Assembly (NCBI RefSeq): GCF_000021485.1
Contig: NC_011761.1
Span: 402,001-466,000 of the forward strand
Source of the DNA: Acidithiobacillus ferrooxidans ATCC 23270
Lineage (GTDB): Bacteria > Pseudomonadota > Gammaproteobacteria > Acidithiobacillales > Acidithiobacillaceae
DNA: 64,000 bases
Direction: 5' to 3'
Below the pieces are notes generated by a model that was not told where the DNA came from, ran no database searches, and saw nothing but the letters and a program-made list of their open reading frames with translations. Positions 1,957 to 48,778 of this stretch are shown here, one piece after another. A program made the position numbers and the translations under genes. The number at the start of each line of letters is the position of its first letter. The stretch's first letter is position 1.

Positions 1957-2760
1957 ATGGCCGAGTTGCCAGAAATAGAACTGCTCAGACAAAAGCTGCG
2001 GCGCAATATCCTGCACAAGCGGGTCGGCGTCATGCAGATGCAGAATGCCAAGGGCGAGGCACTTCCGGATGGTGCCGGCATCAAAGATGCCGCACTCAAA
2101 GGCAGGGCCATCACCGACCTGCATCGCTACGGTCAATACCTTTTCCTGGAACTGGATCGCAAGGACATCCTCGCCCTGCAGTTGGGTGGTGAGCTGAGCG
2201 GCGAACTCGAACGCGGCCCTGTTCATGGGGAAGGCGGGGAAGAGCCGCGAGCGGCATTGGAGATACAGATCAACGGCCAGCAGCGCCTGCGTTTTCAGGG
2301 GACCCAGTTGGGTAACCGCCTGCGCATGCTGGACGAAAACAGCGATGTGGACTTCCTCACCAAGCTCGGCCCTGATCCACTGATGGTGCATGGGGAAGGG
2401 CTTGGTATATTGCGCGAGGCCCTGAGCCGTCGCCGCAGCGCCCTGCGCAACATCCTGCTGGATGATACCTTCGCGCCGGGCATCGGCGGTATCTGGGCGG
2501 ATGAAATCCTTTTTCAGGCCCGCCTGCGACCGGATCGCACCGCGACCAGTCTCAGCGAAGAAGAGCGCGAGCGTTTCCTGGAGCAGATCCCCAAGGTGCT
2601 GGATCGCGCCGTGCGCTGTCAGGCGAAGACCAACCTGCTGCCCAAGACCTTCCTCACCCGCCATCGGGAAGACGGGCACTGCCCGAGTTGCGGCGGCGCG
2701 CTGGAGACCCTTTCGGTGGGGGGTAAAAACGCGATGCTCTGCCCAGCCTGCCAGTCTTGA
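1957..2760 (+). CDS. Fpg/Nei-like DNA glycosylase lacking the N-terminal proline
   Basis: Homologue of formamidopyrimidine-DNA glycosylase, which excises oxidised purines in base excision repair. The 267-residue product begins MAELPEIE where active Fpg begins MPELPE. The Pro that becomes the N-terminal nucleophile is therefore Ala, while the partner Glu3 is kept. A helix-two-turn-helix region is present (RRSALRNILLDDTFAPGIGGIWADEILF). The C-terminal zinc finger keeps four cysteines (CPSCGG...CPACQS) but ends at once after the last pair. The ATG has a GGAG site. Because the catalytic residue is missing, lyase or glycosylase activity is doubtful; DNA-lesion binding or a different chemistry is possible. 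Confidence 0.85.
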   Translation: MAELPEIELLRQKLRRNILHKRVGVMQMQNAKGEALPDGAGIKDAALKGRAITDLHRYGQYLFLELDRKDILALQLGGELSGELERGPVHGEGGEEPRAALEIQINGQQRLRFQGTQLGNRLRMLDENSDVDFLTKLGPDPLMVHGEGLGILREALSRRRSALRNILLDDTFAPGIGGIWADEILFQARLRPDRTATSLSEEERERFLEQIPKVLDRAVRCQAKTNLLPKTFLTRHREDGHCPSCGGALETLSVGGKNAMLCPACQS

Positions 2761-2786
2761 CAGTCGCTATGGGCCGGGCAGATATG

Positions 2787-3236
2787 CTACTTGTTCTTCC
2801 AGGGCAGGCCGCTGGCCTTCCAGCCGTCTACCTTGCCGCGCTGGCCATGGGCGTCGTGTTTGCCCTCGAAACCACCAAGGACGTTATAGCAATGGCTGTA
2901 GCCCAGACCGGCCAGATGTTCGGCCGCAGCCAGAGAACGGCCACCTGTGCGGCAGAGCAGGAGCAGAAGATCATCAGGCTGAGCCTTCCCGCGCAGTTCT
3001 GCATCGAAATCGGGGTTGGGCGTCATGCCCGGATACAGTTGCCACGGCACATGGCAGCAACCTTCGACAAAGCCCGAAAAATCCAGCTCCGGGTGGGAAC
3101 GCACGTCAATGAGGATGGCCTTGGGATGGTCGCGCAACACGGCGTGTGCTTCCTCCGGGGTGAGGTCCCCGGCGTGGCGTTTGCCCGCCGCCTGCGCCCG
3201 TTTCTGTGCTTCCTGCAAAATCGTTTCGGTACTCAT
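2787..3236 (-). CDS. Single-domain rhodanese-like protein
   Basis: Rhodanese domains carry persulfide sulfur on an active-site cysteine, relevant to a sulfur-oxidising lifestyle. In this 149-residue protein the loop is CRTGGRS with Cys95, and the usual ILIDVRSHPE and YNVLGGFEG motifs flank it. There is no signal peptide, so it is cytoplasmic. It is convergent with the Fpg-like gene (27 bp apart) and divergent from the CDF transporter, and so probably a single-gene unit. The sulfur donor and acceptor cannot be told from sequence. A second, different rhodanese lies at 60.7 kb. Confidence 0.88.
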   Translation of the reverse strand: MSTETILQEAQKRAQAAGKRHAGDLTPEEAHAVLRDHPKAILIDVRSHPELDFSGFVEGCCHVPWQLYPGMTPNPDFDAELRGKAQPDDLLLLLCRTGGRSLAAAEHLAGLGYSHCYNVLGGFEGKHDAHGQRGKVDGWKASGLPWKNK

Positions 3237-3435
3237 CGTTCACCTTGTCCTGTAACGCCTTGTGGATGTCTGGACGATTAAACAGTACATGCGCACATGC
3301 TGTCCATCTCCGCGTCCTCCATATCCCGGCCGCCGCTCTGGGGAAGCCGGTTGCCGACTCGGGGCGGATCCGCTCATGGAGCGACCGGAGGGTGTGGTTC
3401 GTTGCCGGTATTGAGATCGTGAAAGGTCCGGGGTA

Positions 3436-4611
3436 ATGGCGGAAAGCATCAGCCGCGCCGAGCGCGGCAGGCAGAATATGCGGGTGACCCTGGCGGGCGC
3501 GGGCACCAACGTGGTGCTGTTTTTCGTCAAGCTGGCGGGGGGCATCCTGGGTCATTCCGATGCGCTGGTAGCCGACGCGGTTCACTCTCTTTCCGACCTG
3601 CTGTCGGACCTCGGACTGGTGTTTGCCATGCGCTTCAGCAGCCAGCCGCCGGATCAGGAGCACCCCTACGGTCATGAGCGTTTTGAGACGCTGGCGGCGC
3701 TGGCGACGGGTACTCTGCTGGCCATCAACGGTGCTGGCATCGGGTATGAGGCGGTCCAGCGGCTCATCATCGGCCATTACGGCATGCCGGATTTCTGGAC
3801 GCTCTATATTGCCGCCTTCGCGATCGCCACCAAAGAAACCCTCTATCAGATCACCATCCGGGTGGCGCGGCGAACCCGCTCCGCGGCGCTGCGCGTCAAT
3901 GCCTGGGACCATCGTACCGACGCCATTTCCAGCGTCATCGTCTTTATCGGCATTGGCGGCAGTTTACTGGGGGCGCCTTATCTCGACTCGGTCGTCGCCC
4001 TCATCGTCGCCCTCATGGTGTTGCGGATTGGTCTGGTCACCGGTTGGGAGGCGGTGCAGGAGCTCGCCGACCGTGGCCTCGGTGATGAGGCGCTGGCCCA
4101 TATCCGCGAAGTGATTCTCGGCTGTGAAGGGGTGCGTGATCTGCATATGCTGAAGACGCGCAAAATCGGTCATCAGGCCCTGGCGGAGGTGCATTTGCAG
4201 GTGACGCCGACCCTGAGTGTTTCCGAGGGCCACCAGATTGCCGAGCGGGTACGGACGACGTTGTTGCGGCAGGTGGATGATCTCGCCGATGCCACCATCC
4301 ATATCGACAGTGAAAATGATGCGGAAGGCGGCGTCCTCCTGTCGCCCCGTAGCGATATCGAAGTGGTGGTGCGCGAGCGCCTGCAAACGCTGGATCTGCC
4401 CGCCGCCGAGCAGATGACGCTGCATTATCTCCGGGGCGGTATGGTCATCTGCCTGCGTTATGCCTTGCCGTCATCCGCAACATTCGCTAGCCTGCAGGAG
4501 ACGGAAACACAGATCCAGGAAGCCCTGCGGGGGCATGTGCCGGGTTTGCAGGAAGTGGACGTGGTCTGGTGCCTGGCTGGATCGCGGTTCTTGTCATCCG
4601 GCGCCCCATAA
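3436..4611 (+). CDS. Cation diffusion facilitator family metal transporter
   Basis: Inner-membrane proton-driven efflux of divalent metals such as Fe, Zn, Co or Cd. The 391-residue protein has the first metal site in transmembrane helix 2 (DAVHSLSDLLSD), the HPYGHERFE loop and the second HxxxD in helix 5 (HRTDAISS). About five to six hydrophobic segments are seen up to residue 205. The cytoplasmic part is longer than in a plain CDF protein: after the usual ferredoxin-like domain (residues about 210-300) there is a further 90-residue segment of similar character. Metal specificity is not resolved; iron or zinc is plausible for an acidophile. Confidence 0.88.
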   Translation: MAESISRAERGRQNMRVTLAGAGTNVVLFFVKLAGGILGHSDALVADAVHSLSDLLSDLGLVFAMRFSSQPPDQEHPYGHERFETLAALATGTLLAINGAGIGYEAVQRLIIGHYGMPDFWTLYIAAFAIATKETLYQITIRVARRTRSAALRVNAWDHRTDAISSVIVFIGIGGSLLGAPYLDSVVALIVALMVLRIGLVTGWEAVQELADRGLGDEALAHIREVILGCEGVRDLHMLKTRKIGHQALAEVHLQVTPTLSVSEGHQIAERVRTTLLRQVDDLADATIHIDSENDAEGGVLLSPRSDIEVVVRERLQTLDLPAAEQMTLHYLRGGMVICLRYALPSSATFASLQETETQIQEALRGHVPGLQEVDVVWCLAGSRFLSSGAP

Positions 4612-4628
4612 TGGTGCGATTTTTGATG

Positions 4629-4661
4629 TTGCACCATAGTGGTGCTCGCCATTGGTGCAAC
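4629..4661 (+). promoter_or_regulatory. Probable NtrC binding sites upstream of glnA
   Basis: A perfect palindrome, GCACCATAGTGGTGC at 4631-4645, matches the TGCACC-N-GGTGCA logic of NtrC operators. A second half-site (TGGTGCAAC, 4653-4661) forms a nine-base inverted repeat with GTTGCACCA (4629-4637). The cluster lies about 40-70 bases upstream of the apparent sigma-54 promoter of glnA, a usual enhancer arrangement. Binding by NtrC is inferred. Confidence 0.65.
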
Positions 4662-4698
4662 ACATAGGAAGTTGTGCATCCCTTGCCCCGGTTTTGGT

Positions 4699-4715
4699 CT
4701 GGTATGAATTTTGTT
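4699..4715 (+). promoter_or_regulatory. Probable sigma-54 (-24/-12) promoter of glnA
   Basis: CTGGTATGAATTTTGTT has GG at 4701-4702, ten bases, then GT at 4713-4714, the spacing needed by RpoN; the -12 element is GT instead of the preferred GC. With the NtrC-like palindromes upstream and glnA downstream, nitrogen-regulated transcription is likely. Confidence 0.6.
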
Positions 4716-4765
4716 AAGAGAGTTTGTTTCGGGTCGTAAATATTTCTTGATTGGAGGAGAAGCAA

Positions 4766-6181
4766 ATGGGTTACAGCCCCAGTGATGTGGTCAAATTGAT
4801 TCAGGAAAAAGACATCAAGTTCGTTGATTTCCGCTTTACCGATACCAAGGGCAAGGAGCAGCACGTCTCCGTTCCCGGGCATGTCATCGAAGAAGACACC
4901 TTTACCGAAGGCAAGGCTTTTGACGGCTCCTCCATCGCCGGCTGGAAGGGCATCAACGAATCGGACATGATTCTTTTGCCTGACCCGGATTCTGCGGTGC
5001 TCGACCCCTTTATGGATGAAACCACCCTTCTTCTCCGCTGTGACGTCATCGAGCCCGCCACTGGTCAGGGCTATGAGCGCGATCCCCGCTCCGTGGCCAA
5101 GCGCGCCGAAATCTACCTGAAGAGCACCGGTATTGCCGACACGTCTTTCTTCGGTCCTGAAAACGAATTCTTCGTGTTCGATTCCGTGACCTGGAATATC
5201 GATATGAGCGGTTGCGCCTACAAGGTGGACGCCGAAGAAGCCGCCTGGAATTCGGGCAAGGAATATGAATCCGGCAATATGGGACATCGCCCCGGCGTGA
5301 AGGGGGGGTATTTTCCGGTTCCGCCGGTGGACTCCGCTCAGGACCTGCGCTCGGCCATGTGCCTGGCCATGGAAGAGATGGGCTTGAAAGTGGAAGTCCA
5401 TCACCATGAGGTGGCCACGGCCGGGCAGCACGAAATCGGCGTCGGCTTCAATACGCTGACCCGCAAGGCGGACGAGGTGCAGATCCTCAAGTATGTCGTC
5501 CACAACGTGGCGGCGGCCTACGGCCAGACGGCCACCTTCATGCCCAAGCCCATCGTCGGTGACAACGGCAGCGGCATGCACGTCCACCAGTCCCTCGGCA
5601 AGGACGGCAAGAACATCTTCGCGGGTGATCTGTACGGCGGATTGTCGGAAATCGCGCTGTATTACATCGGCGGCATCATTAAACACGCCAAGGCGATCAA
5701 TGCGCTAACCAACCCCAGTACCAACAGCTACAAGCGTCTGGTACCTCATTTCGAGGCCCCGGTGCTACTCGCCTATTCCGCCAAGAACCGTTCGGCATCC
5801 ATCCGCATTCCCTTCGTCAACAGCCCCAAGGCACGGCGCATCGAAGTGCGTTTCCCGGACTCTACCGCCAACCCCTACCTGGCATTCTCTGCCATGCTGA
5901 TGGCGGGCCTGGACGGTATCCAGAACAAAATCCATCCCGGCGACGCCATGGACAAGAATCTTTACGACCTGCCCGCCGAGGAACAGGCCAACATCCCCGG
6001 TGTGGCCGCCTCTCTGGAAGAAGCCCTGCGCGCCCTGGAAGCCGACCATGACTTCCTCATGAAGGGTGGTGTGTTCTCCGAGAGCTGGCTGGAAGGTTAT
6101 CTGGATGTGAAATGGGCCGAGGTGCAGGCCTTGCGCATGACCACCCATCCGGTGGAGTTCCAGATGTACTACAGCCTCTGA
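4766..6181 (+). CDS. glnA: Glutamine synthetase type I
   Basis: Makes glutamine from glutamate, ammonia and ATP; a cytosolic dodecamer that is the main ammonium assimilation enzyme. At 471 residues it has the usual GSI-beta length. Landmarks are the [16 protein letters not shown] start, [10 protein letters not shown], the [11 protein letters not shown] metal site and the [13 protein letters not shown]-site loop. NLYDLP carries the adenylylation tyrosine (about Tyr400), so GlnE control is expected. The ATG has a GGAGGA site; a TTG fifteen bases upstream overlaps that site and is rejected. The upstream NtrC/sigma-54 signals and the downstream terminator make it a monocistronic nitrogen-regulated gene. 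Confidence 0.97.
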
Positions 6182-30518: not shown

Positions 30519-31092
30519 TTACATATCCAGAGGGCTGATAATACCACGACCGCCTTTGTTCAGGACATGGGTATAAATCATGGTGGTATTTACGTCGTTA
30601 TCTGTGTCATGCAGTAATTTTGCCTTTTCCATTTGCTTTTTGAGGGGTAACAGAATGTTTTCTGGTAAGACGGTCACCCGGTCTTTAGCCCCCTTACCAT
30701 CCCGGATGATGATTTCGCGGCGTTCGAACTCCACGTCTTTTATCCGGAGGCGCAAATCCTCCAACAGACGCATACCCGTACCATAGAGCATGCCCGCGAT
30801 GAGCCACATCGTTCCTGAGGGCTCGTATAGTAAGGCTCGTGCTTCGCTGGGCGTCAGGACTACCGGCAGATGTTGCGAAGTAAAGAATAAAGCGCCGCGC
30901 CTAGTCCGTATAGGCCTCTTCATTGCGAATACTGTAATGCATCACCCTGATCCGGGCGCGAACCTGGTCCAGGAGCTTGGGCGGGGTGCTGGGAGTTGCT
31001 TGGCTATTTTCCATCCTAAAAATTTTAGGCTGTCCTAAATTTTTAGGCAAGAGTTGGCGTTGTGTAGATACAGTATGTTGATTATTTTTCAT
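30519..31092 (-). pseudogene. intI: Integron integrase IntI, decayed
   Basis: Site-specific tyrosine recombinase of integrons, here a relic on the strand opposite to the cassettes, as is normal for intI. The N-terminal fragment (30901-31092) ends LLDQVRARIRVMHYSIRNEE then AYTD and stop, matching the start of IntI. The C-terminal fragment (30519-30923) resumes at HLPVVLTPSEARALL and keeps the box I arginine in YGTGMRLLEDLRLR. It then jumps from KAKLLHDTDN straight to DVNTTMIYTHVLNKGG, which holds the catalytic Tyr. Two segments are missing: about 70 residues of the N-terminal core and about 90 residues containing the HxLRH box II. A frame change joins the fragments. No activity is expected. 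Confidence 0.88.
31015..31047. repeat. Paired AT-rich palindromes at the intI 5' end
   Basis: CCTAAAAATTTTAGG (31015-31029) and CCTAAATTTTTAGG (31034-31047) are two palindromes four bases apart, abutting an ATG (31014, minus strand) that could itself start intI. They could be an operator for intI, or a small duplication inside an N-terminal extension of the integrase. Confidence 0.5.
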
Positions 31093-40443: not shown

Positions 40444-41381
40444 ACCTCTCAGAACTGATTTCTCTCTACATCGCCCATAAACGTGCGCTCGGATATCGGT
40501 TTCTAACAGAGGACCACTTGTTGAGATCTTTTTGCCGGGCAGTCGGTGATAGGCCAATAGAAACTATCGGTGCAGACGCCGTATCTATTTTTTTAAATGG
40601 CAAGGGGTCCGTTACGGCCTACTGGTACAAGAAATATCATGTGTTAACCGGATGTTACCGATTCGCATTGGCACGCGGGATGGTCACTGCAATCCCGCTG
40701 CCTCGCAGTGTACCAAAGCAGGACGGGCCCATATTTGTGCCTTATATTTATTCCCACGCAGAGTTGAAAAGACTGATTGATGTCCTTCCCGCTCTTTGCG
40801 CCGGACGCTCCAGAATCGACGATTACGTCTTCAAAGCCCTTCTGTTACTGATGTATGGTGCAGGACTTAGAATCAGTGAAGCGCTATCGCTCCATATCCA
40901 TGACGTCGACCTGCAACAGACCATTCTATATGTTCGCGAGACGAAGTTTTACAAGACCCGCATAGTCCCATTAGGCAAGGATTTAACCCAAATTCTGAAT
41001 GAATATATCGCCAAACGGAATAACCGCTACTCAGCAGCTACAGATGCGCCGTTCTTCTGCTTCCGTGACGGCACACCACTGAGTAGATCCGCCGCCCATG
41101 GTCTGTTTCGGCGCGTACGCGCTAAAGCTGACGTCCTCAAAGAGGGTGGCCCGAGGCATCAGCCACGCCTTCACGATCTTCGCCACTCAGCCGCTGTGCA
41201 TCGCCTTATTGCCTGGTATCGCTGCGGTGCAGATTTGCGCGATTTGTTGCCCAAGTTGGCAACCTATCTTGGGCACGTCGATCTTTCGGCAACACAACGT
41301 TATTTGACCATGACACCAGAGTTACTTCACGAGGCGAGCCTGCGCTTCGCACACTATGCATTGGAGAAAGACCATGACTGA
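40440..41381 (+). CDS. RIT tyrosine recombinase B
   Basis: Second of the trio, 313 residues, GTG start in the stop of A. Catalytic domain: MYGAGLRISEALSLHIHDVD (Arg I), HDLRHSAAVHRLIAWYRCG (box II with a longer helix than usual), TYLGHVDLSATQRYL (His/Tyr nucleophile). N-terminal IAHKRALGYRFLTEDHLLRSFCRAVGD is the core-binding domain. All catalytic residues are present. Its end overlaps recombinase C by eight bases. Confidence 0.93.
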   Translation: MNLSELISLYIAHKRALGYRFLTEDHLLRSFCRAVGDRPIETIGADAVSIFLNGKGSVTAYWYKKYHVLTGCYRFALARGMVTAIPLPRSVPKQDGPIFVPYIYSHAELKRLIDVLPALCAGRSRIDDYVFKALLLLMYGAGLRISEALSLHIHDVDLQQTILYVRETKFYKTRIVPLGKDLTQILNEYIAKRNNRYSAATDAPFFCFRDGTPLSRSAAHGLFRRVRAKADVLKEGGPRHQPRLHDLRHSAAVHRLIAWYRCGADLRDLLPKLATYLGHVDLSATQRYLTMTPELLHEASLRFAHYALEKDHD

Positions 41382-42372
41382 CGTGACCCTGCTTGGCCCC
41401 TGGATACGGCGATTTCTACTGGAGTATCTGGTACGAGAGCGCAATCTTTCGATAAATACCCAGCGCAGCTATCGAGATATGCTGTCCCTTTTTCTGCCCC
41501 ACGTGAGTAAACAACTCAACAAATCCGTGGACCGATTAACGGTATCTGATCTGTCGGCAGACCTTATCCGTCAATTCCTTAGTGATATTGAGGAAAGCCG
41601 CCACTGTCTCGCCGCCACCCGCAATCAGCGCCTCGGCGGCCTGCACGCGTTGGCTCGATTCATTGGTGAAAATAGTCCTGAGCATATCGAGTGGTGTTCA
41701 CAAATCCGGCTGATTCCTTTTAAAAAAACGGCATATCCAGGCATTACCTATCTCGAAAAGCCAGAAATGGACGCCCTTTTAGAATCTCCAGATCGCCAGA
41801 CCCCTCAAGGCCAACGTGATTACGCCTTATTACTGTTTCTCTACAACACTGGGGCGCGTGCCAGTGAAGCTGCCGATCTCAGGATCGTTGATGTGGATTG
41901 GCATGCTCAATGCGCCCACATTATCGGCAAAGGTAACAAGCGGCGTACCTGTCCATTGTGGCCGACCACTCTGGATCAATTGCGTGCGCTAGCAACGCAA
42001 CGTGGGTTGGATCAACGAGTTTTTTTAAATCGCAACGGCCAACCCATCACACGCTTTGGTATCCATACGATGGTCGAACGACATGCTGCTAGGGCTTGTG
42101 TGCAAGTGCCATCAATGAGTACGAAGCAGGTCAGTCCACATGTGATCCGCCACAGCACGGCAACCCACCTTTTACGTGCTGGCGTGGACATCAATACCGT
42201 CCGAGCCTGGCTGGGACACGTTTCGCTCACTACGACCAACATCTACGCTGAGACTGACCTCGAGACTAAAACTCGTGCGTTGGCGACATGTGCTCCGCCC
42301 ACAGCAGAGGGGATGGCAACGAAACATTGGCGTCAGCAGCCGGACCTGATGGCCTTCCTCCACGGCTTATAG
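41374..42372 (+). CDS. RIT tyrosine recombinase C
   Basis: Third of the trio, 332 residues from the ATG that overlaps the end of B. XerC/D-like: LSINTQRSYRDMLSLFLPHVSK (core binding), YNTGARASEAADLRIVDVDW (Arg I), HVIRHSTATHLLRAGVDINTVRAWLGH (box II, His), TTNIYAETDLETKTRAL (Tyr). Catalytic residues intact, so the whole trio appears potentially active. Only about 70 bases separate its stop from the right inverted repeat. Confidence 0.93.
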   Translation: MTDVTLLGPWIRRFLLEYLVRERNLSINTQRSYRDMLSLFLPHVSKQLNKSVDRLTVSDLSADLIRQFLSDIEESRHCLAATRNQRLGGLHALARFIGENSPEHIEWCSQIRLIPFKKTAYPGITYLEKPEMDALLESPDRQTPQGQRDYALLLFLYNTGARASEAADLRIVDVDWHAQCAHIIGKGNKRRTCPLWPTTLDQLRALATQRGLDQRVFLNRNGQPITRFGIHTMVERHAARACVQVPSMSTKQVSPHVIRHSTATHLLRAGVDINTVRAWLGHVSLTTTNIYAETDLETKTRALATCAPPTAEGMATKHWRQQPDLMAFLHGL

Positions 42373-45283: not shown

Positions 45284-45343
45284 GCATAATAAGTCGTTCA
45301 AGACGACCGCGCTACGCGCGTCGCCTTAACTCCAGCGTTAGGT
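45284..45343 (+). other. attC site 11
   Basis: GCATAAT to GTTAGGT, 60 bases, with CAAGACGACCGCGC and GCGCGTCGCCTT arms. The first core has T in place of the final C. Confidence 0.83.
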
Positions 45344-45350
45344 ATCAACA

Positions 45351-45692
45351 ATGAACGAATCGCGGTATCGCGAAGTGTGGCTTGAAAGTCCAGACGGGCA
45401 ATCTCTTTGTGCCCTTATAAACGGCAATCTAGGGTGGCTAATGTATCTTCGAGAAAACGGGGATGCCGGATTCAGTTCACGAAATCCCAACTACAGTGGG
45501 CCTGCTGACGCCACAATCGAGTATCGGTTAAGCAATGGACAACAGGATGAATATCCTGCGTCGTGGGCGCTTTCCGTTGCTGAAATTGAGCGCGCACTTA
45601 ATTTCTTTCAGAAGGAGCACAAACCGCCGACATTCATCCATTGGCATAACGACTCTGGAGATGGAACTATTCTTGAACACCAAGATGCCTAA
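45351..45692 (+). CDS. Cassette 12: Imm1-type immunity protein
   Basis: 113-residue protein with GQSLCALINGNLGWLMYLRENGDAGFSS, then IEYRLSNGQQDEYPASWALSVAEIERALNFFQKEHKPPTFIHWHND, the Imm1 family core. Imm1 proteins neutralise toxin domains of contact-dependent or polymorphic toxin systems. No cognate toxin is in the window, so it is an orphan immunity gene captured as a cassette, a protective arrangement seen in integrons. The start lies about seven bases after the attC 11 core. Confidence 0.85.
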   Translation: MNESRYREVWLESPDGQSLCALINGNLGWLMYLRENGDAGFSSRNPNYSGPADATIEYRLSNGQQDEYPASWALSVAEIERALNFFQKEHKPPTFIHWHNDSGDGTILEHQDA

Positions 45693-45707
45693 CGAATAAG
45701 GTTAGAT
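45687..45707 (+). other. attC remnant 12
   Basis: GCCTAAC and GTTAGAT cores only seven bases apart; the internal arms are gone. The group II intron remnant begins directly after it, so this is probably an attC damaged by the intron or by later deletion. Confidence 0.6.
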
Positions 45708-45711
45708 CCCG

Positions 45712-46163
45712 GTGGACAGGCCCAAGAACCGCAAGTTTCTGGGCTTCACGGTCAGCCGCAACGGAGCTAGGCTGAAGGTGGCCGACAAGGCCCTCGACAA
45801 GCTGAAAGATCGGGTGCGGGAACTGACCCGTCGTACACGAGGCAACAACATTGGCGTTATCGTGGCAGAGCTGAGGAAAGCCCGCTTGGTTGGAAAGCGT
45901 ATTTCGGCATTGCCGAGGTACTGAGCCCTCTGCGCGACATCGACAAGTGGGTACGACGCAAGTTACGCTGCTGCGTCTGGAAACAATGGGGGCCGGCGGG
46001 CTACAGGGAACTACGCAAGCGCGGGGTAACGGTGCGCGAAGCGTGGAACATCAGCAAGTCGGCGCATGGGCCGTGGCGGCTGTCGAAGACAGCGGCGCTG
46101 ACCATTGCATTACCATTGGCCTTCTTCAAGAACCTGGGAGTGCCGAGCCTTGCGGCCCGGTAA
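45712..46163 (+). pseudogene. Group II intron reverse transcriptase, C-terminal fragment
   Basis: VDRPKNRKFLGFTVSRNGARLKVADKALDKLKDRVREL is the end of the RT palm/thumb of bacterial group II intron proteins, without the YADD-bearing palm. One base is missing near 45887. The next frame then continues LGWKAYFGIAEVLSPLRDIDKWVRRKLRCCVWKQWG, GYRELRKRGVTVREAWN and KSAHGPWRLSKT (maturase domain), and FFKNLGVPSLAAR to TAA at 46161. No endonuclease domain follows, as in class C introns. It is dead by truncation and frameshift. Confidence 0.88.
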
Positions 46164-46254
46164 GCATTCAATTCATCGAACCGCCGGATACGTGGTGACC
46201 CGTTCGTCCGGTGGTGTGGGAGGGAGGGGCCGTGAGGCTTCTTCCTATCCCGAT
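46164..46254 (+). ncRNA. Group II intron 3' domains (DV/DVI)
   Basis: GAACCGCCGGATACG...CGTTCGTCCGGTGGTG forms the domain V-like hairpin right after the maturase stop, followed by TGTGGGAGGG and a domain VI-like segment. It ends CTATCCCGAT at 46254, a usual class C 3' terminus. Confidence 0.7.
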
Positions 46255-46620
46255 GTGCGCCGGGCATGGCGCGTTACTTCGCAGGTGCGAGTCCTGTGGC
46301 CAGGTTTTCGCAGAGCCGAAGGCGAGGAGAAGGGCAAGGGCGTCGTCGCGAGGCGGGGTCTGGAGGAAGCCCAATCCGAGGCTGCGGGGCGATGAACAAA
46401 AACCGGATATGAGGCGTGATGCATCCGGGACGAGCGGGCACGTGACCGCGAAGCCCTCCATCCATCTGCGGTTGTTGGGATGCACTTTGTAAATCCGGCG
46501 GCAGCGCAGAAAGTGACGTGTCTTGGCCCGGGAGGTCTCCACGACAATGGGCCGGCGACATGCCACAAAATGACGGGCAACCGGCATTGAAAGTCATGGA
46601 GAAGTCAGCAATCAGAGGAC
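46255..46620 (+). ncRNA. Group II intron 5' domains, truncated
   Basis: Begins GTGCGCCGGGCATGGCGCG, a class C-like 5' terminus, and continues with GGTGCGAGTCCTGTG, GAGCCGAAGGCGAGGAG and GGTCTGGAGGAAGCCCAA (domain I elements). GTCTTGGCCCGGGAGGTCT and GAAGTCAGCAATCAGAGG follow, the usual stretch just before the intron protein gene. It breaks off there and chromosomal sequence resumes. Short open frames over this RNA are not genes. Confidence 0.65.
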
Positions 46621-46642
46621 CATCAATTTGCTTGATCCCACA

Positions 46643-47236
46643 ATGTATGGTGATCCCCTCGCCATGCTACTTACCCGTGTTCGCGAATGCGAACTTTGCG
46701 CCGGACACCTGCCGCTTGGTGCGCGTCCGGTGCTGCAGATGGATTCGCGCGCCCGTATTTTGATCGCTGCGCAGGCACCGGGCAGGAAGGTGCATGAAAC
46801 AGGTATTCCCTTCAACGATGCCAGCGGCGATAGGCTTCGTGCCTGGCTGGGTATCTCCCGAGAAGTATTCTACGACGCCCGACAGGTGGCGCTCGTACCC
46901 ATGGGATTCTGCTACCCAGGCACAGGAACATCCGGAGACTTGCCGCCGCGGCCAGAGTGCGCTCGTGCCTGGCATGGGGAATTACTGCCGCATTTGCAGC
47001 ATCTGCAACTCACCCTGGTCATCGGCCAGTATGCCCGGGCTTATCACCTTCCCGCCGAGGCCGGAACGCTGACGGAGGTGGTTCATGCATGGCGCGAAAA
47101 CTGGCCCAACCGGATACCGCTGCCGCATCCCAGCCCGCGTAATAATCTGTGGCTGAAGCGCAATCCGTGGTTCGAGGAAGATCTCATTCCGATGCTTCAG
47201 GCGCGCGTGGCCGAGGTGCTTGCGCAGGACCGTTGA
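46643..47236 (+). CDS. Uracil-DNA glycosylase superfamily protein
   Basis: Protein of about 197 residues with RVRECELCAGHLPLGARPVLQ, ILIAAQAPGRKVHETGIPFNDASGDRLRAWLG (the GxAPG and D-x-S-G motifs of the UDG fold) and LPHPSPRNNLW (the HPS loop). It fits the COG1573-type group. Only the CELC pair of a possible iron-sulfur site is present near the N-terminus, so cluster binding like that of family 4 enzymes is doubtful. The start is ATG 46643; a TTG at 46628 would add five residues. It is the first intact backbone gene after the integron, so its promoter region may have been replaced by intron sequence. Confidence 0.8.
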   Translation: MYGDPLAMLLTRVRECELCAGHLPLGARPVLQMDSRARILIAAQAPGRKVHETGIPFNDASGDRLRAWLGISREVFYDARQVALVPMGFCYPGTGTSGDLPPRPECARAWHGELLPHLQHLQLTLVIGQYARAYHLPAEAGTLTEVVHAWRENWPNRIPLPHPSPRNNLWLKRNPWFEEDLIPMLQARVAEVLAQDR

Positions 47237-47302
47237 CGTGGCGTTCAGGAGCGCATTGTCCTTGAATGTGCATGGTAACCTGCGGCCGCGCCCCAGCGAG
47301 CG

Positions 47303-48778
47303 CTACGTCCCGCAAAAGGTTTTGAATGGCCCGAAATCCTCGGGGGCAGGCTGGGTATAGCTCTCCAGCCCCGGACGCTCCGCGAAGGGCCGTTCCAGCA
47401 CGGCGAGCAGCGCTTTGAATGGGGTGAGGTCCTGGTTCAGCGTAGCGGCGGCCAAGGCTTCCTCGACTTTGTGGTTGCGGGGTATGTAGAGCGGATTGAC
47501 CTGATCCATAGCCTCGGCGCGCGCCTCCGCGGTGGCGCTTTCGTGCGCCAGCCGGGCTTGCCATTGCGCCAACCAAAGATCAAACGGCGCCTGGTTGACA
47601 AAGTGGGCGCGGACCTGCGCCGGATCACCGCGCACTGCCGCTGATAAACCGCGGAAGACCTGGGTGAAGTCGGCATTCTGGCCTTCCATGGCGGATAAAA
47701 GGGCTTGCGCCAGCGCTAGATCGCCGTCCTCCGCCGTGGCCAGGCCCATCTTGGCGCGCATGCCATCGAGCCAGTGGCGGGTGTAGAGCTTGGGAAATTC
47801 GTTGAGCTGTTCGGTCAGCAGGCGCGCGGCCTCATCGGGGTCGGGGTGAACCAGATCAATCAGGGTTTCGGCGAAGCGCGTGAGATTCCACTGTGCAATC
47901 AATGGTTGGTGGGCGTAGGCATAGCGGCCATGGGCGTCGATGGAGCTGAAAACAGTCTCCGGATCGTAGTTATCCATGAAGGCGCAGGGGCCGTAATCGA
48001 TGGTCTCGCCGGCGATGCTCATGTTGTCCGTGTTCATCACACCGTGAATGAAACCGACCAGCATCCAGCGCGCGATCAGGGCTGCCTGTGCGGCGGATAC
48101 CGCCGCAAACAGCTCCAGATAGGGATTGTCCGCACCTTTCAGGGGGGGGTAGTGGCGGGCGATGGTGTAATCAGCCAGTTGTTTGACCCGGACGTTTTCG
48201 TTGCGTGCGGCAAAGAACTGAAAGGTGCCGACGCGAATATGGCTGGCGGCGATGCGGGTGAGGATGGCGCCGGGGAGCCATGTTTCCCGACGGACGGTTT
48301 CCCCGGTCGTGACGGCGGCCAGCGCGCGCGTCGTGGGTATGCCCAGCGCATGCATGGCTTCGCCGATGACATATTCGCGCAGCACCGGCCCCAGTGCCGC
48401 TTTGCCATCGCCGCCCCGGGAAAAGGGCGTGCGACCAGAGCCTTTCAGTTGCATATCCCGGCGCCGACCATGGCGATCGATCAACTCGCCGAGCAAGAGG
48501 GCGCGGCCGTCCCCCAGTTGCGGAGAGAAGTGGCCGAACTGATGGCCGGCATAGGCCTGAGCCAAGGGCAGCGCGCCTTCCGGGACCTGATTCCCGGAAA
48601 AAATGGCGGCACCCAGTTCATCGTCCAGCGTGGCACTGTCGAGTCCCAGCTCCTCCGCCAGTGCCTGGTTCAACAGCAGCAGTCGGGGCGCTGGTGCCGT
48701 GGCCGCCTGCCAGGGAGCGTAAAAGCCCTCCAGATCGCGCGCATAGCTATTGTCAAAATGTAATAATGCCTTATCCAT
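47303..48778 (-). CDS. selO: Protein adenylyltransferase SelO (YdiU)
   Basis: Pseudokinase-fold enzyme that transfers AMP from ATP to protein hydroxyls and helps redox homeostasis. The 491-residue product shows [40 protein letters not shown] (nucleotide loop), [22 protein letters not shown]-type [26 protein letters not shown] and [25 protein letters not shown] (metal Asn/Asp). It ends [12 protein letters not shown], where the penultimate residues follow the conserved Cys-containing tail. It is three bases upstream of clpA in the opposite sense of order and probably shares its message. Confidence 0.94.
   Translation of the reverse strand: [491 protein letters not shown]

Follow-up and report, generated by a model that had tools for sequence, protein, structure and literature searches.

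The window analysed here is a stretch of 64,000 nucleotides that corresponds to positions 402001-466000 of the single-contig genome (2,982,397 bases) of Acidithiobacillus ferrooxidans ATCC 23270. On its reverse strand, at 30597-30878 (G000:C1:432597-432878), lies a probable remnant of an integron integrase that aligns with positions 95-188 of the 315 positions of profile TIGR02249 and scores 108.9 bits, which is below the curated cut-off of 265 bits. Note that all 14 control genomes also have weak matches of TIGR02249 to other tyrosine recombinases, none of them above the cut-off, and that matches above the cut-off are found in 7 of the 17 genus genomes. In genome G003 such an integrase (C1:1662405-1663343) is located approximately 13 kb from the intron relic at 1676201 that is orthologous to the one described below. 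On the forward strand of the window, an attC-like site read by eye (45284-45343) lies upstream of the last cassette gene (45351-45692), which encodes an Imm1-like immunity protein of 113 amino acids (PF14430, E 1e-4, 23.5 bits, just above the cut-off of 22.4). On the far side, also on the forward strand, is a gene for a uracil-DNA glycosylase-like protein (UDG; 46640-47236 within an ORF at 46628-47236; PF03167, E 4.6e-22). This flank is conserved, with DNA matches to 46600-47320 in nine of the 16 other genus genomes, and we read it as the end of the cassette array and the locus as the distal end of an integron array that has decayed in the window's genome. (Weak tyrosine-recombinase matches elsewhere in the window, at 40680-42249, probably mark a three-copy mobile element, because the same arrangement recurs at G000:C1:758287-759856 and 2145638-2147207.)

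Between the cassette gene and the UDG gene, the 3' part of a class C group II intron, made up of the end of its reverse transcriptase (RT) frame and domains V-VI and running to 46254, adjoins the 5' part of a class C intron that starts at 46255, with 0 bases between them. Both parts are on the forward strand. In an Rfam model search, RF00029 matched domains V and VI of the left-hand intron, including its 3' terminus, at 46179-46254 over the full length of the model (1-77 of 77, E 1.8e-5), and RF02001 matched the class C D1-D4 region of the right-hand part at 46342-46521, again over the full model (1-170 of 170, 98 bits, E 1e-18). The termini were set by these models together with homologous copies from the genus, namely 18 other 5' ends and 11 other 3' ends. 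The base that matches 46254 is the exact end in nine of the 11 other aligned 3' ends (those of L036 and L034, at 3160, fall one or two bases short of it), and the DNA beyond it varies among these sister copies, the first base of the 3' exon being T in 10 of 11 (two of the 11 positions extrapolated). The 18 other 5' ends all start with GTGYG immediately after exon sequence, and that exon sequence ends in ACGT in 13 of them. These results confirm the original prediction that the two intron ends abut at 46254/46255 without an exon base, since the class C models and the sister-copy termini place both ends at exactly these positions.

The junction pattern (a 3' end, 0-12 bases and then a 5' end) was present in one of the 17 genus genomes, which is that of the window. 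The scan of these 17 genomes for the pattern turned up no intact tandem, and the intermediate was thus not seen. Chance abutment of the termini was rejected, given that both are exact and that the junction recurs in other genera (see below). (Genus DNA matches at G007:C264, query 53-164, and at G010:C48, query 1-80, were considered as candidates that span the junction and were rejected, their flanks being an ordinary hairpin 5' exon and an ordinary 3' exon. As separate observations, the first 26 bases only of a class C intron occur right after ACGT, followed by unrelated DNA, at L005:1502-1527 (G000:C1:110080-110105), a short 5' end only is likewise seen in L084, and L034:3935-4301 and L042:2144-2285 are very short class C deletion derivatives that keep both ends.)

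The left-hand intron retains a decayed C-terminal RT part at 45711-46163, with 87.9-89.2% DNA identity to L035, L041 and L002 as computed over the RT end plus domains V-VI. The RT end had originally been placed from 45708; an RT remnant is present, but the homology starts at approximately 45711, and the reading frame does not stay open across the fragment. To its left, at 45687-45708 on the forward strand, is what appears to be the first half of an attC-like hairpin that has been cut near its apex. In particular, the 21-mer at 45687-45707 is followed, exactly or with one mismatch in the 21-mer, by the complementary half in L118, L119, L120 and L126, and the whole hairpin with both halves folds at -23.4 kcal/mol. 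The left edge of the intron thus looks, from these comparisons, as if it lies inside an attC-like hairpin, the kind of target that these introns use. This is not the sole possible reading of the edge, because in L117 the 21-mer runs into other DNA and not into the complementary half. (The 21-mer is common to unrelated loci in several genus genomes.)

The right-hand part is, on the alignments, a chimera in which an intron of one lineage (B) is joined to an older relic (A). Its 5' part (46255-46454), of lineage B or L041 type, is 97.0% identical to L041 and L045 and 83.8% identical to L043, and carries the EBS1 sequence ACGTG (46440-46444) in the loop of its stem. The change to relic A falls between 46454 and 46471, where the alignment reveals a four-base repeat (CATC CATC) at 46455-46470, and because of this repeat the join is not the outcome of clean homologous recombination. 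The older resident intron, which has lost its RT and domains V-VI, is represented at 46463-46633 and is recognised by its identity to relics of G003 and G007 and by its orthologous position before the UDG gene: 46463-46516 is identical at 54 of 54 bases to the orthologous relic in G003 (L043), and 46572-46633 is 95% identical to the relic in G007 (L039). The right half had originally been drawn as 46255-46620; its identification as an intron 5' part stands, but the relic runs on to approximately 46633 and the part is itself chimeric.

The DNA upstream of the UDG gene was compared in G002, G003, G004, G005, G007 and G013 (G008, G009 and G011 were left out). G003 and G007 carry an RT-less class C relic immediately ahead of the gene, G013 and G005 have a relic of domains V-VI there, and no intron was seen in the 420 bases upstream of the gene in G004 and G002. 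Approximately 40 bases that G007 retains immediately before the UDG gene, among them the last bases of the 3' end of the relic, are absent from the window. Because the relics at the orthologous position in G003 and G007 have lost the RT as well, the loss on the right side probably predates the junction, and with it the tandem that we propose below.

Whether the two sides derive from a single intron can be judged from their nearest relatives. Over shared columns, the left (3') part differs from L034c at 7 of 200 positions and from L041 at 32 of 200, whereas the counts for the right (5') part are 18 of 140 against L034c and 5 of 140 against L041 (Fisher test of 5' versus 3' differences, p 0.0014 for L034c and 0.0002 for L041). 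With the first eight columns dropped, the 5' part differs at 12 of 132 and 5 of 132 positions, respectively (p 0.051 and 0.0005). Because the nearest relatives differ (L034c on the left, L041 on the right), the two sides probably come from different introns, a reading that these counts support and do not prove. Note that 3' parts generally diverge faster than 5' parts (0.237 versus 0.130 between L041 and L048), which inflates the test with L041; the comparison with L034c runs counter to this trend and is only borderline once trimmed. Moreover, since intron copies recombine, as is seen at the window's own locus, mosaicism of L041 or of L034c, which is a deletion derivative, could mimic differing nearest relatives, so that mosaic copies and unequal rates together could account for part of the signal. 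(When the whole halves were compared with L041 alone, the result also pointed to different sources and was too weak, and the crossed test that includes L034c is the better one.)

True tandems of class C introns were found in other genera. We scanned 84,980 genomes, one per species, for places where a class C 3' end has a 5' end within the next 0-30 bases, using patterns that cover one type of 5' end (GTGYGCCNRGC), other class C types being outside the survey. Seven matches were obtained in six loci, three with a gap of 0, two with a gap of 2, and one each with gaps of 3 and 6; of these, two matches at L087 and the one at L088 were accepted as tandems. At L087, in a Zoogloea metagenome-assembled genome (MAG), three class C introns lie at 2553-5701 behind one terminator-like hairpin that folds at -18.9 kcal/mol. 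The order is the hairpin and TTTTTCGT, a 653-nt intron, an identical 653-nt copy, the bases TG and an 1841-nt intron, such that a gap of 0 separates the two identical introns, both without RT, and a gap of 2 precedes the third, whose reading frame has RT motifs recognised by eye. At L088, on a beta-proteobacterial MAG contig, a partial intron is flush (gap 0) against a complete intron that is 70.0% identical to it, and both have RT frames. RF02001 matched all of the D1-D4 parts seen at these loci (three in L087 and one in L088). RF00029 gave no match that reached E 0.1 in either of them, and domain V was called there from a 44-base domain V core (at most one mismatch) that occurs three times in L087 and twice in L088.

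The remaining matches are weaker. In L084 and L089 a domain V (RF00029, 40.2 and 40.3 bits versus a cut-off of 40) is followed only by a short downstream 5' end, without a match to RF02001, and these two loci are thus weaker tandem candidates. L085 was dropped despite its gap-0 match, as no group II match to E 0.1 was found in its first 2500 bases, and the shared domain V core is absent from both L085 and L086, the latter of which was dropped as well. A looser pattern, applied to 369 genomes of the class, returned three matches, namely the window, L129 and L130; the last two are without group II features and were taken as chance. Exact head-to-tail stacks therefore occur, also between unlike introns, and because the introns of L088 are only 70% identical, such a stack is not the product of a single circle. 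(The best tandems, those of L087 and L088, come from MAGs. No description of exact end-to-start class C tandems was found in the part of the literature surveyed, which did not include four primary IIC papers.) Full tandems, which the original prediction had named as a possible source of the junction, are thus real in other genera and were found in none of the genus genomes; nor did any relative in the genus have two complete introns parted by exon bases, and in L087 a gap of 2 is found beside a gap-0 junction.

We consider it probable that class C group II introns once stood here in a precise tandem, since eroded, where a now decayed chromosomal integron ends. A head-to-tail tandem followed by two outer deletions was one of the origins originally suggested. 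The tandem is supported by the true tandems in other genomes and by the relic of the resident intron common to other species, but the loss of the RT on the right side, as noted above, probably came before it. Class C introns are described, in the available text of three reports (PMC7161350, PMC3522654 and PMC4424553), as recognising a target made up of a stem-loop and short pairings. Sister introns in the genus sit after hairpins, many of them attC-like (as read by eye, with two 5' exons folded as hairpins), and the EBS1 of the right-hand part fits the ACGT that ends most sister 5' exons. The class C target consists of a hairpin, here attC-like, and a short IBS1 directly before the insertion site. 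Lying almost wholly 5' of that site, it outlasts the insertion of a resident intron and remains usable, so that a second intron can enter by reverse splicing immediately ahead of the first base of the resident, with the hairpin on its other side, and come to lie flush against it. The resident here would be the lineage B intron fused to relic A, the older sequence next to the UDG gene, and the newcomer would be the left-hand copy, of the L034c type, joining on the 5' side of the resident. The left copy is taken as the newcomer because the CGAT that precedes the right-hand intron at the present junction is not a fit for the EBS1 of that intron (two of five positions). That the left copy is without its 5' part and has its edge in an attC-like hairpin could reflect either a reverse transcript that was joined to the target before it was complete or a deletion at a later time. 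The arrangement at L087 is most simply read in the same manner, as a further intron landing between the hairpin and a resident.

Some of the observations run against this reading. The base after the target would be the first G of the resident, where the sister 3' exons nearly all have T, and the IBS3 contact would therefore be lost. Moreover, the order at L088 looks opposite, the downstream copy seemingly being the newer, since its EBS1 (ATCGA) fits the CGAT that forms the end of the upstream intron. L088, a single case, suggests insertion behind another intron. In the window, domain VI forms a hairpin that folds at -23.1 kcal/mol. It is conceivable, if rather doubtful, that some class C introns use the 3' ends of other class C introns as a landing site, with the domain VI hairpin taking the place of the terminator or attC hairpin and the terminal CGAT serving as IBS1, and L088 fits such a reading.

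The original prediction had also raised the possibility that the junction is a DNA copy of an intron circle. In this scenario, which extends to an RNA concatemer, cDNA that crosses the circle junction would have been joined to the resident relic on the right, within D1-D4, and to an attC-like hairpin on the left. Such an origin would account for the exact joining of the last base to the first and would need fewer events. It would also place the B-to-A change within the 5' half, where recombination of a B-type cDNA with A would be expected to leave it, and the two identical 653-nt units that abut in L087 might be viewed in the same light. However, the halves of the junction have different nearest relatives (with the limits that mosaicism and unequal rates set on this argument), the gap-0 tandem of L088 joins introns too unlike to have come from one circle, and L087 has a 2-base gap beside its gap-0 junction. 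In addition, circles of the Ll.LtrB intron are described in the available text of PMC7444581 as dead-end products that are unable to reverse splice. A circle is thus not needed to explain the junction and fits it less well, and we regard this origin as distinctly unlikely.

Two introns at neighbouring attC sites could instead have been joined by a deletion that removed exactly the cassette and exons between them. Closely spaced introns behind separate hairpins do exist in G002 (L034, L035), G013 (L042) and G007 (L121), and the A/B chimera may itself be such an event, but both ends of the deletion would have to hit terminal bases by chance, and this exact junction is seen again in other genera (L087 and L088). 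We therefore think a deletion of this kind unlikely. That the locus encodes a functional circularly permuted (CP) group II ribozyme is very improbable. The order D5-D6-D1-D4 is that of CP group II RNAs as presented in the available text of PMC8637638. In that text, however, CP RNAs have a stretch of sequence between their reversed splice sites, where the window has 0 bases, and are reported never to have an IEP gene within or near them, whereas an RT remnant is directly upstream here; the form is also not conserved, being present in 1 of 17 genus genomes. An eroded precise tandem remains the reading that we prefer.

The introns of the window resemble known group IIC introns, including group IIC-attC introns, in their class C D1-D4 region (full RF02001 model) and their domains V-VI up to the 3' end (RF00029), in their location in a cassette array, and in a target that combines a hairpin with IBS1/EBS1 pairing (PMC7923331 and PMC4424553, as far as their available text goes). 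This pairing is found in the sister copies and is not found with the CGAT at the present junction. The IIC-attC introns that have been described lie antisense to the cassettes and are inserted at TTGT/T, on the bottom strand of attC. In contrast, the family studied here is found mostly at ACGT/T, and the window copy has the same sense as the cassette gene at 45351-45692; one same-sense IIC intron, in Enterobacter cloacae, is reported in the available text of PMC7923331. What further sets the introns of the window apart from known group IIC introns is that two intron parts abut. In twintrons and nested group II arrays (Thermosynechococcus, and Methanosarcina as cited there; available text of PMC2882425), one intron lands in another, so that an inner intron lies inside an outer one, whereas the introns of the window lie end to start and neither is interrupted. 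(Parts of a different group II intron lie inside a class C RT gene at L041:4798-6617 in G013, where RF01999 matches D1-D4 and RF00029 matches domain V, and at L035:841-916 in G002, where RF00029 matches; both arrangements are probably twintrons.) With the CP group II RNAs of Roth et al. 2021 (PMC8637638, available text) the intron pair in the window shares the placement of domains 5-6 before domains 1-4. It differs from them in being without sequence between the splice sites, in its RT remnant, in being a dead relic and in not being conserved in the genus, and its membership in the published CP class is not supported. As in the group II intron circles described in the available text of PMC6248898 and PMC7444581 (Ll.LtrB), the last base is joined to the first, but those circles are RNA, and the two halves of the junction look like different introns.

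These findings take one candidate off the list of cases in which an intron circle might have integrated as DNA. The object in the window is itself a relic of modest interest, and it illustrates how introns, by inserting and then decaying, remodel the end of an integron array. The wider point is that class C introns can stack precisely: with a target that lies almost wholly 5' of the insertion site and thus remains usable, exact head-to-tail stacks can form. Such stacks present domains V-VI followed by domains I-IV, the order of CP group II RNAs, and may be plausible raw material for these RNAs. If some class C introns do land on the 3' ends of others, then stacking would have evolved as a strategy of self-targeting and would not be accidental.
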